Assembly: GCA_012719175.1 (NCBI GenBank)
Contig: JAAYAX010000005.1
Location: 186,001-250,000 of the forward strand
Direction: 5' to 3'
DNA length: 64,000 bases
From: Methanomassiliicoccus sp.
Lineage (GTDB): Archaea > Thermoplasmatota > Thermoplasmata > Methanomassiliicoccales > Methanomassiliicoccaceae
The notes below the pieces were generated by a model that saw only the letters and a list, made by a program, of their open reading frames with translations, did not search any database and was not told the DNA's origin. How positions within the stretch are numbered: the first letter of the stretch is position 1; each line of letters starts with the position of its first letter. Made by a program: the position numbers and the translations under genes. This document shows positions 24,214 through 29,883 of this stretch, piece after piece.

Positions 24214-24548
24214 GGTCGAACTATCTGTTCTAAAGATATTAAAAATGGACGAAGCAAGTTAGTAATAAGAAATCAACATGGGGGTGGACCAGAACGAAAC
24301 TTTGCTTTTCAACCTCATTTTGTTAATGTCTCTAGGTCAATAACGTTCCTGATTCCGAAAACAACAAGGATTTAAACACCTCGATAAATGGTCGGCAGAT
24401 GATATCGTCCCCCACCGGAAGTAGGTCAAACTCCGGCTGCGAGCATCGGCACCCGCTCCTAGCGACCGTGATGTTACTACTGCTTCCGAAGATAGATGTC
24501 GCCTTTCCCAATCGTCGTCGGAAAGGCGTCACGGGGAAAACGGACGAT

Positions 24549-25628
24549 ATGAACAAAGAGGAGCGAAAGACGATCCTCTGGGAGGAACGTAGGATCGTCC
24601 TTTTTGACAAGAACCTGTTCCTACCAACGGTCAGCATTGAGCTGCCCCGTGGGGAGGCCGATGCCGCAGGAGCCGTCGTGGAATTGGACACTGACATCCT
24701 CGCAGATACGCGGGAGGGGTTGGACCTTCCCACACTGGACTATGATCCGGTCACGACCGCGAGACCTGAGGAGGCTGTGGAGGACCTTTCCCTGACAGAG
24801 CTCTCAACGCTACCTTCCCCGGTAGGTGGTGAGCAAAACGATACCCTCGAGGCCATGGATGATGAAGCCAGCGATGAGCCTCTGGATAAGACCATGCCCA
24901 GTATGTTACCATCCGATGACGGCTTAGGGATGGTGGAGGAGGGCGACGTCGTGGCATCTTCTCCTCAGCATATGGATGACCTGCCTCTCGTCGTGGACGG
25001 GCCGATGGAATCCATCTCCGGAGGTGCGCTGGTGCTGGTAGAGGGGGAGAAGGGCCAGAAGGCCCGGGAGCTGCTGCAACAGGTCGCCCTTGGGATCCTA
25101 GAGAACGGCCGATCGGTAACCTACGTCACCACCTCACAGTCCGTCCAGGGCTTAGTGATGGAGATGTTCGGAAGGGACCAACGCATCGCCACCTATCTCC
25201 CTGACCGTCGCCTACTGTGCGTGCCGGTCTTTCCGCTTATCGAGGGCAGAGGAACCCGTGACGGCCTCCTGGACAAGCTGATGGGCTCAGAGCAGCTTCA
25301 GACGTCAGACGTCCTCATCATAGACTCCCTGTCCGATTTCCTGGGGGATCGCTTCGAAGAGGCCAACTGCATTAGGTTCCTGGAATTCGTTCAGAACCTG
25401 AACGGCATGGGCAAAGCGGTGTTCTTGGTGGTCAACGACGGTCAGAAGGGAATACTCCCCCTGAGGCTGGAATCAGAACTGCAGCTATCTCTGCCCTCCG
25501 GAGAGGAGGGAATCTTGCAGATAAAGAGGTACCAGCAGGCTCACCAGGGTGCTTCGGAATTTCTACGTTTTCAGGTCCATCCCCGGGCCGGGGTGCTCAC
25601 CCATCCCCTCATCGTTGAACCCCAGTGA
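24549..25628 (+). CDS. ArlH/FlaH-like RecA-fold protein with degenerate Walker A
   Basis: About 360 residues. The first 155 are acidic and low in complexity. Residues about 159-359 resemble archaellum ATPase ArlH: GALVLVEGEKGQKARELLQQ, then SVTYVTTSQSVQGLVMEM, LLCVPVFPLIEG and the Walker B strand DVLIIDSLSDFL. The Walker A position reads EGEKGQKARE instead of a GxxxxGKS/T loop, so ATP hydrolysis is doubtful. No arlI, arlJ or archaellin gene is in the window. An ATG at 24399 would add 50 residues and lies at the expected distance from a TATA-like ATTTAAAC (24370-24377), so the longer form cannot be excluded. It is followed by the giant FN3 protein. Confidence 0.7.
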   Translation: MNKEERKTILWEERRIVLFDKNLFLPTVSIELPRGEADAAGAVVELDTDILADTREGLDLPTLDYDPVTTARPEEAVEDLSLTELSTLPSPVGGEQNDTLEAMDDEASDEPLDKTMPSMLPSDDGLGMVEEGDVVASSPQHMDDLPLVVDGPMESISGGALVLVEGEKGQKARELLQQVALGILENGRSVTYVTTSQSVQGLVMEMFGRDQRIATYLPDRRLLCVPVFPLIEGRGTRDGLLDKLMGSEQLQTSDVLIIDSLSDFLGDRFEEANCIRFLEFVQNLNGMGKAVFLVVNDGQKGILPLRLESELQLSLPSGEEGILQIKRYQQAHQGASEFLRFQVHPRAGVLTHPLIVEPQ

Positions 25629-25743
25629 GGGACGTCTGATGCAGGCCATGGTGGTTTTTATCGACTATCATAGATGATAGTCAGTCGAATACCTACAAAT
25701 ATCCCACTTTTCGCTGCTTGACAGGATAAAGGGAGCTATCGAA

Positions 25744-28700
25744 GTGAGTTCTAGGCCTACCGCTCAGCGAATATTTGCTGTTCTGATGCTGTGTTGCATC
25801 CTTCTGGCGGCCATCCCTCCTGTGGATGGATATTTGGCTCCCTCTGCTCCCGTTCTCGAGATCGAATCTACTGGCAGCGGCATGGTAAGTTTAAAGTGGA
25901 CCCTCCCCAACGACAATGGCTCCCCCATAACCGGTTATAACATATACAGAGGGGAGGCGCCCGGCACGGAGACCTACTTCGACTCCGTTCAGGAGGAAGA
26001 TATCCTCATCTACACCAACACTGGATTGGTCAACGGCAGGACCTATTATTACCAGGTGGCCGCGGTAAATGAAGCGGGCCCGGGAGAGATGTCCAACGAG
26101 GTGTCCGCCACACCCCTCTCAGTACCTGGCGTCCCTTCTGCCTTCGAGGGGTCATCGGGCGTATCCAGCATCACCTTGACCTGGCTTGCCCCCTATGATG
26201 ATGGTGGCCTGCCTGTAATACAGTACAAGATCTACCGCAGCGCCACCTCCGGCACCGAGATCTTCCTGGCCAATACCACCGTTACCACTTTCACCGATAC
26301 CGGTCTGACCATCGGTAGGGTGTACTACTACATGGTCAGCGCCGAGAATGCTTTCGGAGAGGGCGGGTGTACCGAGGAGATCTTGGTGACGGTCGCCGAC
26401 GTTCCAGGCCCTGTCACCGGCCTTATGGCGGTGGCCGGCAACGCGTCTGTGACCCTCAACTGGACGGCGCCCAGCCACACCGGGGGCACCCCTATCACGG
26501 GCTATCTGATCTACCGCGGTACGGAGAGCGGCCAGGAGACGTTCCTATGGAACACCGCCACCTTGAACTTCAAGGATACCGACCTCATCAACGGACAGAC
26601 CTACTACTACAAAGTAAGGGTGTCCAACAGCAATGGTGCCGGACAGCCGTCCGGTGAGGTCTCCTCCACCCCCTTGACCACACCGTACGCCCCCACGGAC
26701 CTGCTGGCCACAAGGGCCGATCAGGCTGCCATACTCACATGGTTGGCGCCGACCGTAGACGGCGGCACCTCCATACTGTACTATCGGATCTATCGCGGCA
26801 CCACTCCAGGAACGGAGATATTCATCTCCAACTCCACGATCACCTCGTTCATGGACAACGGTCTTACCAACGGTAGGACCTACTATTATCTGGTAAGCGC
26901 GGTCACGGGGGCCGGCGAGGGTACCAAATCCTATACTGTCAGTGTCGTGCCGGCGACCGTGCCCGAGGCACCCTCGCAGGTGACCGCTGCAGGCTCAGCA
27001 GCCAAGGTGACCCTGTCCTGGAACACGCCCTCCAGCGGTGGTTCCACAATCTTGCGCTATAATGTATATTGGAGCGTGACCCCCACCGGTGCCACCAACC
27101 GCATCGATACCCTTACCAATGCCACCACCTTCGTCCATTCCGAGCTGACCAATGGAGTGAGGTATTACTACACCATATCCGCGGTGACCGCCATCGGTGA
27201 GGGTCCCCGATCCCCCACCGTGTTCGCCACCCCCCTCAGCGTCCCTTCCGCCCCCTCGGAGCTTACCGCGGTTGGCGGGGCCAAGAGCATCACCCTGACG
27301 TGGACGGCCCCCAGCGACGGCGGGACTGCTGTCACCGGTTACAAGATCTATCGCGGTTCCGCCTCTGGAGGGGAATCGTTGTTGAAGCTGATAGGGCCGA
27401 ACACCACCTACGTGGATCCAGGCCTGCCGGACAACATGCTTTACTATTACAAGATACGGGCGATCAACAGCCAAGGCGATGGCCCCATATCCTCGGAGGT
27501 CTCTGCTCGCACCATTGACAAGCCGGGAGCACCTCAGAACGTCATCGTCTCCAGCGGTGACTCCTTCGCCACGTTAAGTTGGTCGGCGCCCTCTTACAGC
27601 GGCGGCTCCTCAGTAATCGGCTACAACGTATATCGTAACACCTCAGGCAGTTGGAGCCTGGTCGCCTCCCTCGTCCCCTCCCCGTACCTTGACACCGGTC
27701 TGCAGAACGGTCACCAATATGGCTACATCGTTCGGGCGGTGAACGGCCTGGGCGAAGGCTCGTCCTCGGAGGAGGTCCAGGTCATGCCCGCTCGCGTGCC
27801 GGACGCACCCGCGCTCGCAGCCATCGGCGGCCTGCGCTCTGTCAATCTGACATGGACCGCTCCCTCGTTCAACGGAGGAACGAACATCACTGGGTATGCC
27901 ATCTATCGTGGGGTAGCCTCTGGTCAGGAGGTCTTCTTCGCCTCAGTCGGCAACATCTTCACCTTCCTGGACAGCGGCCTGTCGGACGGGACGGCCTATT
28001 ACTACCGCATCACCGCCCTAAACGAGAGGGGAGAGGGGTCGCCCTCACTCGAGGTCAGCGCCACCACGCTGGGCCTTCCGGGAAAGCCTGTGAACCTTTC
28101 GGTGCAGCCCACCGGTGTGAACATGCACCTGTCATGGGCCCCATCTTCCACCAATGGAGGAGCGGAGATAACCTCCTATCGAGTGTACCGTGGGACCAGT
28201 GCCGAGAGCATGATATCTATCGCTCAGGTCACTGATACAGAATATGACGACCCAGATCCGGAGAACGGTGTGAGCTACATCTACTCTGTATCGGCCAATA
28301 ACATGGTCGGTGAAGGTCAGGCCGATACGGCCTCGGCAGTCATGATACGGGCCCCAGGGGAGCCGCAATCACTGACCATCACCCCATCATCACATCGCAT
28401 CACCCTGACGTGGAGCGCCCCTGCCGACCTGGGCGGCAGCTACCTCGTAGGTTACCGCATCTACCGCGCGCTATCCACGGGGCCGGTGGAGACCATTGCC
28501 GCCGTGAACGGGACCGAGTATATCGACAACGGGCTGGAGAACGGCATCACCCATCACTACTGGGTATCGGCGGTCAACTCCCTCTTCGAAGGTGAGACCA
28601 ATGGACCTCTATCAGCGGTGCCGGCCAACGTGCCCTCCAAGGTCGTCAGCGTGTCCATCGTCCCTGGAGTGAGGCAATCGGCCTTGAGCTGGGAGGCCCC

Positions 28701-29883
28701 CTTCAACGGCGGATCTAGCATAACCAGCTACAAGATCTACCGTTCATCGTCGGAGAGCGGCGCTTACAAGCTAGTTATCAGCACCGCCGCATTCATGTTC
28801 ACAGACACCGGATTGCTGGACTCTACCACCTACTGGTACCGCGTTAGCGCGGTAAACCCGGTGGGCGAGGGGGCGATGTCCGATGCCATGTCCTCCGCCA
28901 CCTTGACACCTCCTTCGAAGGTGACCGGCCTTATCGCCACATCTGGTGATGGGCAAATTCAACTTCAATGGGATGAGGCCGAATCCGGTGATGGGTCGGA
29001 CATAACCTACAGGGTGTACTCCTCTACAGCCCCCGGTGGGGAGACATTGTTGACAACGGTCAGCATCAACAACTATCTCAACATCGATCTGGTGAACGGA
29101 AGGAGCTACTACTATCAGGTCAGCGCTGTGAACGCCACGGGTGAGGGAATGAGGTCAGATGAGGTATCGGCCGTTCCCACCACCGTCCCCGGCTCACCTG
29201 TCAATCTCAGGGCCAACCCCGGCGACGGGCTAATCATCCTCTCCTGGAGCCTGCCCTACAATAACGGGGGCGCCACCATTATAGGATACAAGCTGTACTG
29301 GAGCATCATCCCCAATGGTAGCTACGAGATGGTCCCTGTCACCGGGAGCAGCTACGTTCATACTGGCCTCGAGAACGGGGTCACCTATTATTACAAGGTC
29401 TCGGCCGTCAACCAGGTGGGAGAGGGGCCCATGTCGGCCGCCATCACCTCAGAACCTGTGGCCAAACCGCTCGCTGTCGTCGATCTCCTAGCAGCCAGGA
29501 CGAACGGGAACATCATCCTTACCTGGACCGATCCGAATCCCTCCTCTGCGGACATCCTCGGTTACCGTATATACAGGGGCATTCAGAGCGGGAGCGAGAC
29601 GTTGTACGACGTGAGCTCCTCGACGACCTATACGGACGAGTACGCGGAGAGCGGCGTACCATACTACTACATGGTCACCGCCCTCAACTCCACCTCGGAG
29701 AGCAATCCCTCCAACGAGGTCAGCGTGGTACCCGGGTCCTCTTCACAGAGCTTGCATGGGGAAGAGGGGATCCAGATGACGGAGATCGTGATGATGGCCG
29801 CCGGTGTCATGATAGCGGTGGGTACGGTCTTCATCCTGGTGGGAAAGGGCATACTATCGTTCAGACGGGCACCTAACAAGTGA
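25744..29883 (+). CDS. Giant anchored surface protein with 14 FN3 domains
   Basis: A 1379-residue secreted protein. The signal peptide (IFAVLMLCCILLAAIPPVDG) is followed by 14 fibronectin type III domains of about 90 residues. Each has a core like ITLTWxAPxxxGGxxITGYxIYRG and an end like NGxTYYYxVSAVNxxGEGxxS, then a Pro-rich joint such as VPGxP. A C-terminal membrane helix (IVMMAAGVMIAVGTVFILVGKGIL) and a basic FRRAPNK tail anchor it. The start is GTG at 25744. The domains diverge from one another, so the array is not a recent expansion. Extended fibres or stalks for cell contact are the likely role, by analogy with FN3 arrays. Confidence 0.9.
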   Translation: MSSRPTAQRIFAVLMLCCILLAAIPPVDGYLAPSAPVLEIESTGSGMVSLKWTLPNDNGSPITGYNIYRGEAPGTETYFDSVQEEDILIYTNTGLVNGRTYYYQVAAVNEAGPGEMSNEVSATPLSVPGVPSAFEGSSGVSSITLTWLAPYDDGGLPVIQYKIYRSATSGTEIFLANTTVTTFTDTGLTIGRVYYYMVSAENAFGEGGCTEEILVTVADVPGPVTGLMAVAGNASVTLNWTAPSHTGGTPITGYLIYRGTESGQETFLWNTATLNFKDTDLINGQTYYYKVRVSNSNGAGQPSGEVSSTPLTTPYAPTDLLATRADQAAILTWLAPTVDGGTSILYYRIYRGTTPGTEIFISNSTITSFMDNGLTNGRTYYYLVSAVTGAGEGTKSYTVSVVPATVPEAPSQVTAAGSAAKVTLSWNTPSSGGSTILRYNVYWSVTPTGATNRIDTLTNATTFVHSELTNGVRYYYTISAVTAIGEGPRSPTVFATPLSVPSAPSELTAVGGAKSITLTWTAPSDGGTAVTGYKIYRGSASGGESLLKLIGPNTTYVDPGLPDNMLYYYKIRAINSQGDGPISSEVSARTIDKPGAPQNVIVSSGDSFATLSWSAPSYSGGSSVIGYNVYRNTSGSWSLVASLVPSPYLDTGLQNGHQYGYIVRAVNGLGEGSSSEEVQVMPARVPDAPALAAIGGLRSVNLTWTAPSFNGGTNITGYAIYRGVASGQEVFFASVGNIFTFLDSGLSDGTAYYYRITALNERGEGSPSLEVSATTLGLPGKPVNLSVQPTGVNMHLSWAPSSTNGGAEITSYRVYRGTSAESMISIAQVTDTEYDDPDPENGVSYIYSVSANNMVGEGQADTASAVMIRAPGEPQSLTITPSSHRITLTWSAPADLGGSYLVGYRIYRALSTGPVETIAAVNGTEYIDNGLENGITHHYWVSAVNSLFEGETNGPLSAVPANVPSKVVSVSIVPGVRQSALSWEAPFNGGSSITSYKIYRSSSESGAYKLVISTAAFMFTDTGLLDSTTYWYRVSAVNPVGEGAMSDAMSSATLTPPSKVTGLIATSGDGQIQLQWDEAESGDGSDITYRVYSSTAPGGETLLTTVSINNYLNIDLVNGRSYYYQVSAVNATGEGMRSDEVSAVPTTVPGSPVNLRANPGDGLIILSWSLPYNNGGATIIGYKLYWSIIPNGSYEMVPVTGSSYVHTGLENGVTYYYKVSAVNQVGEGPMSAAITSEPVAKPLAVVDLLAARTNGNIILTWTDPNPSSADILGYRIYRGIQSGSETLYDVSSSTTYTDEYAESGVPYYYMVTALNSTSESNPSNEVSVVPGSSSQSLHGEEGIQMTEIVMMAAGVMIAVGTVFILVGKGILSFRRAPNK

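Follow-up and report, generated by a model that had tools for sequence, protein, structure and literature searches.

The gene pair and the canonical arl operon

The window, a stretch of 64,000 nucleotides on contig C5 of a Methanomassiliicoccus sp. genome, carries on its forward strand a gene for a protein with an ArlH-like domain, which we call pseudo-ArlH, followed by a gene for a giant FN3 surface protein. A preliminary description had placed the first gene at 24549–25628. That frame is present and reads as described, but the gene more likely begins at an ATG at 24399, to which the reading frame stays open, and extends over 24399–25628 (409 aa). We favor this start because, in addition to the open frame, the island at 24345–24401, which ends at the ATG, is the same at 57 of 57 bases in the orthologue L087 (77% identical), because a TATA-like TTTAAA (24371–24376) lies ∼25 bp 5′ of the ATG, and because the codons of 24471–24548 evolve as coding sequence (dN/dS 0.20). 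Such a distance is the usual spacing between a TATA-like box and the start in leaderless archaeal genes. Past the ATG, identity to L087 drops to 51 of 66 bases (24402–24467), and the 24 codons of 24399–24470 give a weak dN/dS estimate of 0.76 against the L087 genome. The gene is probably leaderless, with the conserved island as its putative promoter.

The N-terminal tail contains a hydrophobic stretch, LLATVMLLLLPKIDVAF, then RRRK (24456–24524), with a 17-residue mean hydropathy of 2.0. It is a candidate membrane-associating segment that includes Pro, Lys, and Asp and would form a marginal membrane helix. Further along lie the conserved motif IVLFDKNLFLPTVSIELP (24594–24647), modeled with two short strands (E41–44 and E53–57) at low confidence (pLDDT ∼40), and an acidic linker (24648–24965) that is probably disordered, judging by its net charge, a dN/dS of 0.50, and a pLDDT below 50. 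The 185 residues ahead of the domain, counted from 24471, carry a net charge of −26. What had been described as an acidic 155-residue extension is indeed acidic, but it is longer (∼190 aa), and the hydrophobic/basic segment and the motif show that it is not acidic throughout. We infer that the tail may serve as a membrane tether.

The FN3 gene (25744–29883) encodes 1379 aa with 14 fn3 stretches (Pfam E 3e-116), and hydropathy peaks suggest a hydrophobic signal-like N-terminus and a C-terminal anchor. Ahead of it is a conserved intergenic island (25652–25743; 89 of 92 bases the same as in L087) with a TATA-like stretch and a perfect 9 bp palindrome, GACTATCAT-AG-ATGATAGTC (25663–25682). The gene probably has a separate promoter, and this promoter-like island makes co-transcription with pseudo-ArlH questionable. 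Allowing up to 2 mismatches, we found no other genomic copy of the palindrome; we rejected it as a regulon marker, as the 3 other genome matches, each with 3 mismatches, equaled a backwards control in number.

The genome (2.42 Mb, 16 contigs, 99.6% complete) yielded one further ArlH match, on contig C7, in an operon that reads arlCDE-F-G-H-I-J. Canonical ArlH is followed there by ArlI (670 bits; cutoff 550) and by ArlJ, the best match at 457 bits and under the 550 cutoff; the ArlCDE-, ArlF-, and ArlG-like frames, as well as CheD- and CheC-like frames beyond, are named by position and resemblance. The arlJ search of the genome gave this single match, outside the window. The earlier view of an orphan gene with no arlI or arlJ is correct for the window alone but not for the genome, and, given the canonical arl operon on C7, the gene in the window is the genome's second ArlH. 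A 2016 survey (PMC4858521) describes FlaH as single copy per archaellated genome, from which two ArlH copies in one genome depart, and describes Methanomassiliicoccus as nonmotile and without secretion ATPases. Although it carries arl genes, the lineage is thus at most putatively motile. Another genome, G370, has three arlH and three arlJ matches (C76, C79, C101), apparently several arl sets.

The ArlH-like domain and its ATP site

The last ∼220 residues of the protein read from 24549–25628 form an ArlH/KaiC-like RecA-fold domain (24966–25625), as indicated by profile and structure-profile searches, AlphaFold, Foldseek, and VIA. The top family is ArlH (NF006320, 2.1e-25, 89.7 bits; NF052589, 1.8e-24, 86.7 bits), with both scores below the 215-bit cutoffs. 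On NF052589, the relatives in G232 and G288 score 151.9 and 56.1 bits, and the genome's own canonical ArlH, at 221.6 bits, exceeds the 215 cutoff. In Pfam, the 359-aa protein matched no family up to E 10. In a profile search of solved structures, M. jannaschii ArlH (4wia, 7.4e-41) came ahead of S. acidocaldarius ArlH (4yds, 1.5e-7) and two RadA chains (∼4e-4). The AlphaFold model has a mean pLDDT of 53 and a pTM of 0.51, with most of the domain at ∼60–87 and values below 55 in the tail and the final ∼40 residues of the domain; an ArlH fold is favored in this model because its input alignment contained canonical ArlH rows. Foldseek placed 4wia first (E 1.1e-13), as did VIA (Z 21.2, rmsd 3.5, 204 residues), in which 4yds (Z 19.1) tied with KaiC-type chains (17.6–19.0 in the rows shown; best non-ArlH 19.0). 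The core residues E191, G192, T217, T221, M232, P252, V253, P255, and R332, numbered from 24471, are conserved in five or six of the six relatives. The proposal that the C-terminal part has an ArlH fold is thus upheld, with ArlH as both the best family match and the best solved structure by sequence and fold, and the structural comparison suggested at the time led to 4wia rather than to another family. From sequence and model, the protein keeps the ArlH/KaiC core fold.

The ATP site was compared in an alignment of 64 ArlH-type frames from the examined loci, comprising 6 of the window kind, 2 truncated, and 56 canonical (22 from the order and 34 from other lineages). The last Gly and the Ser of Walker A (GxxxxG[KR]S) are retained in all 56 canonical rows, and the R and S of GSGRS are present in all 22 from the order. 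At this position, the window protein reads VEGEKGQKARE, the destroyed Walker A itself being EGEKGQKARE (25041–25070), where the genome's canonical ArlH has EGGEGSGRSV. The six pseudo-ArlH sequences read EKGQKARE, EKGKKARE, EKGKRARE, KKGSGVEQ, SDTDIINN, and PDPLPVNK; all have lost the Walker A R/K and S positions, and all retain the EG ahead of the loop. Loss of the Walker A site, first seen in the window sequence, is therefore clear, and none of the clade's six members has an intact P-loop, which the preliminary description had named as a refutation. A Walker B-like strand, DVLIIDS (25308–25328), keeps its Asp in the alignment; this residue is present in 56 of 56 canonical rows and in 4 of 6 pseudo-ArlH sequences, including that of the window, and is Asn in G288 and G447. 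Among the six, the E of STE survives in L039 only. The C-terminal IEIT, each residue of which occurs in 21 or 22 of the order's 22 canonical rows, is lost in 6 of 6. Canonical ArlH of the order itself reads GxxG[ST]GRS, with Arg replacing the Walker A Lys in 22 of 22 rows (L002 included), and all 34 rows of other lineages have Lys. ArlH throughout the order may thus have relaxed ATP handling.

With these changes, the window protein would hardly bind ATP. In P. furiosus FlaH (PMC6011876), K39A and D126N strongly reduced affinity for both nucleotide and FlaI, and the suggestion of a nucleotide-independent scaffold would, by analogy, fit these data. Since the published FlaH mutants defective in nucleotide binding have a weak hold on FlaI too, pseudo-ArlH may have quit the motor altogether.

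Distribution, descent, and selection

A profile search gave strong long-frame pseudo-ArlH matches in 6 of 147 Methanomassiliicoccales genomes, from three genera and two families: G000, G012, and G009 (g1, f1), G232 (g19, f3), and G288 and G447 (g22, f3). The G009 copy ends at a contig end. The fusion that the preliminary description proposed to look for elsewhere is thus present in other members of the order. A phylum sample of 389 genomes included three of the carriers; the other matches listed for it all span the domain alone or nearly so. Long frames from the phylum search in G561, G489, and G472 proved to be canonical ArlH with intact P-loops. By eye, those in G055 and G023 seem to be fortuitous matches within high-GC frames; G178 holds a KaiC-like frame with GEPGTLKS. 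Six weak long-frame matches within the order, among those listed (G294, G170, G376, G235, G308, and G285; E ∼1e-6 to 1e-8), were not counted as relatives because all are without an FLPT-like motif and five have a zinc-ribbon-like CPRCG near the start; the sixth, whose start is missing, has CDRCGE. Proteins of ∼500 aa with a weak KaiC-like profile match, a zinc-ribbon-like N-terminus, and no consensus GxxxxGK[ST] recur within the order, encoded at L134 (291–1772), L137 (125–1645), and L138 (103–1593).

Of the five relatives whose N-terminus is complete, four have the tail motif in its strict form (IVLF-x-FLPTVxIxL type) and the fifth (L040) has a shorter FLPT form; the motif is absent from all other predicted proteins of the examined loci (248,355 residues, duplicates included). 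Loss of the P-loop and presence of the motif both recur in three genera, which goes beyond chance. The hydrophobic stretch in g1 and G232 has 17-residue means of 1.9–2.2 (L003 2.2, L039 1.9) and is followed by RRRK or KKNRSRKRK, and in G288 and G447 (L040 and L062) the hydropathy maximum within the first 200 residues is only 1.1. In a tree built without the P-loop columns, the six sequences form one group (88/78) within the order's ArlH branch (100/99). The group stays when g22 or G232 is left out (SH-aLRT 82 and 92) and is broken, by 2 changes, without the three g1 sequences. The branches of pseudo-ArlH are long, and a single origin, likely on this evidence, falls short of proof for that reason; the common tail motif is independent support. 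From the sequences, pseudo-ArlH is a clade defined by a dead P-loop, a long tail with the IVLF..FLPT motif, and descent from the order's ArlH, and the window gene belongs to it. In the titles and abstract openings of the ArlH/FlaH literature, we found no report of a second ArlH of this kind; the divergent environmental sequences annotated as ArlH that are mentioned in PMC12153180 are different in kind.

The pseudo-ArlH/FN3 pair occurs in G000, G009, and G012, and in G010, G011, and G014 the slot between a 110-aa membrane protein and a pyrophosphatase is occupied by other genes. At L110 (14458–16026), L111 (8192–9532), L112 (8031–9371), and L113 (7853–8902), in relatives without the pair, a charged low-complexity protein adjoins the pyrophosphatase. 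In G232, a 1655-aa FN3 protein lies 95 bp downstream of the pseudo-ArlH gene. The window FN3 protein has this neighbor as its best match in G232 (440.6 bits; 4 of 43 first-look candidates scored), and in the reverse direction the G232 protein matches the neighbor in G000 at 617 bits vs 485 for the next protein, with all 23 candidates scored. The reciprocal best match is good evidence short of proof, because 36 of 147 genomes in the order encode FN3 proteins and great length by itself tends to raise scores. In G288, the pseudo-ArlH gene adjoins a REC-PAS gene (PAS above the cutoff), followed by arlJ, with che-like genes past the operon. The frame that follows pseudo-ArlH in G447 matches the end of the G288 REC-PAS protein, and at that point the contig ends. 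Both g22 genomes (L076 2473–3573; L075 5277–5717 and 8603–9010) have a hemerythrin 5′ of pseudo-arlH, named by resemblance in G288, and 3′ of it a REC-PAS protein ending in FYGPD, visible at its end only in L075; two genes separate the hemerythrin from pseudo-ArlH in G447. Recurrence of the pair in another family (f1 and f3), with the FN3 proteins as mutual best matches, strengthens the suggested link to the downstream surface protein. The pair is absent in g22, however, and the G288 gene is found close to arlJ. Across the order, 23 of 147 genomes gave an arlJ match, as did 5 of the 6 carriers (Fisher p 3e-4, kinship ignored); the sole carrier without a detected arlJ is G447, whose genome is 64% complete.

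Codon comparison with the L087 genome gives a dN/dS of 0.086 for the domain, 0.12 for the 40 codons after 24548, and 0.50 for the linker; the same two genomes give 0.018 for canonical arlH and 0.10 for the FN3 gene. These values indicate that pseudo-ArlH is under purifying selection, looser than that on canonical arlH. A pseudogene reading is contradicted by these ratios, and with a domain dN/dS of 0.09, pseudo-ArlH is not a decaying gene.

Proposed role and comparison with known systems

In published models (PMC8978795 and PMC12024892), ATP-bound ArlH stimulates ArlI, autophosphorylation releases ArlH, and ArlH binds the ArlCDE ring, which has no membrane tether. On this view, it is through ATP binding and autophosphorylation that ArlH takes the archaellum from assembly to rotation; what keeps the motor in position is left open (PMC12024892). 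Against this background, we propose that the ArlH gene was duplicated within Methanomassiliicoccales and that one copy would have lost its ATP site and C-terminal signature, acquired the long N-terminal tail, and been retained by selection. Because its product can hardly bind ATP, pseudo-ArlH should stay out of the ATP-gated cycle of ArlH. The retained core would dock on an ArlH partner, which could be ArlH or else the ArlCDE ring. The tail would tie the protein to the membrane and, for two genera of the three, bring it close to the FN3 surface protein of the adjoining gene, and pseudo-ArlH might then act as a fixed anchor or brake. Such an ArlH-derived, ATP-blind adaptor of the archaellum/cell-surface machinery is the likeliest role, though we regard the chances for and against it as evenly balanced, and the docking partner, the tether, and the anchor or brake function are each put forward as what the sequences may imply. 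Counted against the adaptor are the position outside the arl operon in g1 and g19, the absence of the FN3 neighbor in g22, and G447 with no detected arlJ. A more specific version, in which a membrane-tethered, ATP-blind, nonphosphorylatable ArlH paralogue is a permanent anchor, or stator clutch, from ArlH or the ArlCDE ring to the FN3 surface protein, and so gives the tether that euryarchaeal ArlCDE lacks, seems distinctly unlikely to us; were it true, it would be a previously undescribed kind of archaellum accessory part, a prospect we hold to be just as slim.

The same retained core and lost ATP site are what one would expect of a poison subunit, and canonical ArlH coexists with pseudo-ArlH in 5 of 6 carriers, so that pseudo-ArlH could be a decoy or dominant-negative regulator that enters ArlH rings or competes for ArlCDE and turns the motor off, for example during FN3-mediated attachment. 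We consider this doubtful, as loss of the C-terminal IEITEVSG signature and of several canonical-conserved residues would weaken ring insertion. Pseudo-ArlH might instead have left the archaellum to be solely a cytosolic partner of the FN3 protein in adhesion or surface assembly: the FN3 gene directly adjoins it in g1 and g19 with best matches both ways, and the pair is present in G000, G009, and G012, its slot being filled by other genes in G010, G011, and G014. This reading is unlikely, since G288 and G447 have no FN3 neighbor, the G288 gene is near arlJ, and arlJ accompanies all but one of the carriers.

Two further explanations turn on the altered site itself. A sensor that still binds nucleotide or another ligand there would be in keeping with the Walker B Asp in four of six sequences, including that of the window, and with the invariant EG ahead of the loop; loss of the Walker A Arg/Lys and Ser in all six, and of the Asp as well in G288 and G447, makes this quite improbable. 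The ATP-site loss, the long branches, and the patchy distribution could also be those of a decaying duplicate without function, which we find barely credible given the dN/dS of 0.086 in the domain and 0.12–0.20 in the N-terminal motifs, the invariant promoter island, and the lack of a stop within the match in all six carriers (one of which ends at a contig end). A natural ArlH copy that has no ATP site and is kept by selection would separate the structural from the nucleotide role of ArlH and can serve directly to test which surfaces of ArlH are important.

Among known systems, pseudo-ArlH is closest to ArlH (FlaH; 4wia and 4yds; NF052589 and NF006320), with which it shares the RecA/KaiC-like domain, the core residues, and the Walker B Asp, and within whose branch in the order it is nested. 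It differs in having no Walker A and no C-terminal IEITEVSG, and in its added N-terminal tail of ∼190 residues. It is also the second ArlH of its genome, and in g1 and g19 its gene lies apart from the arl operon. KaiC and the archaeal KaiC-like ATPases, such as PH0284 and PH0186, have the same fold (Z ∼17.6 to 19.0 in the rows shown), but they match less well than the best ArlH chain, and in the window protein the ATP site is lost. By analogy only with the rings described in PMC12024892 and PMC8978795, the proposed membrane-tethered static element by ArlH/ArlI would resemble ArlX, the membrane-tethered ring of crenarchaea, and its proposed static position adjoining ArlH/ArlI would resemble that of the untethered ArlCDE ring.
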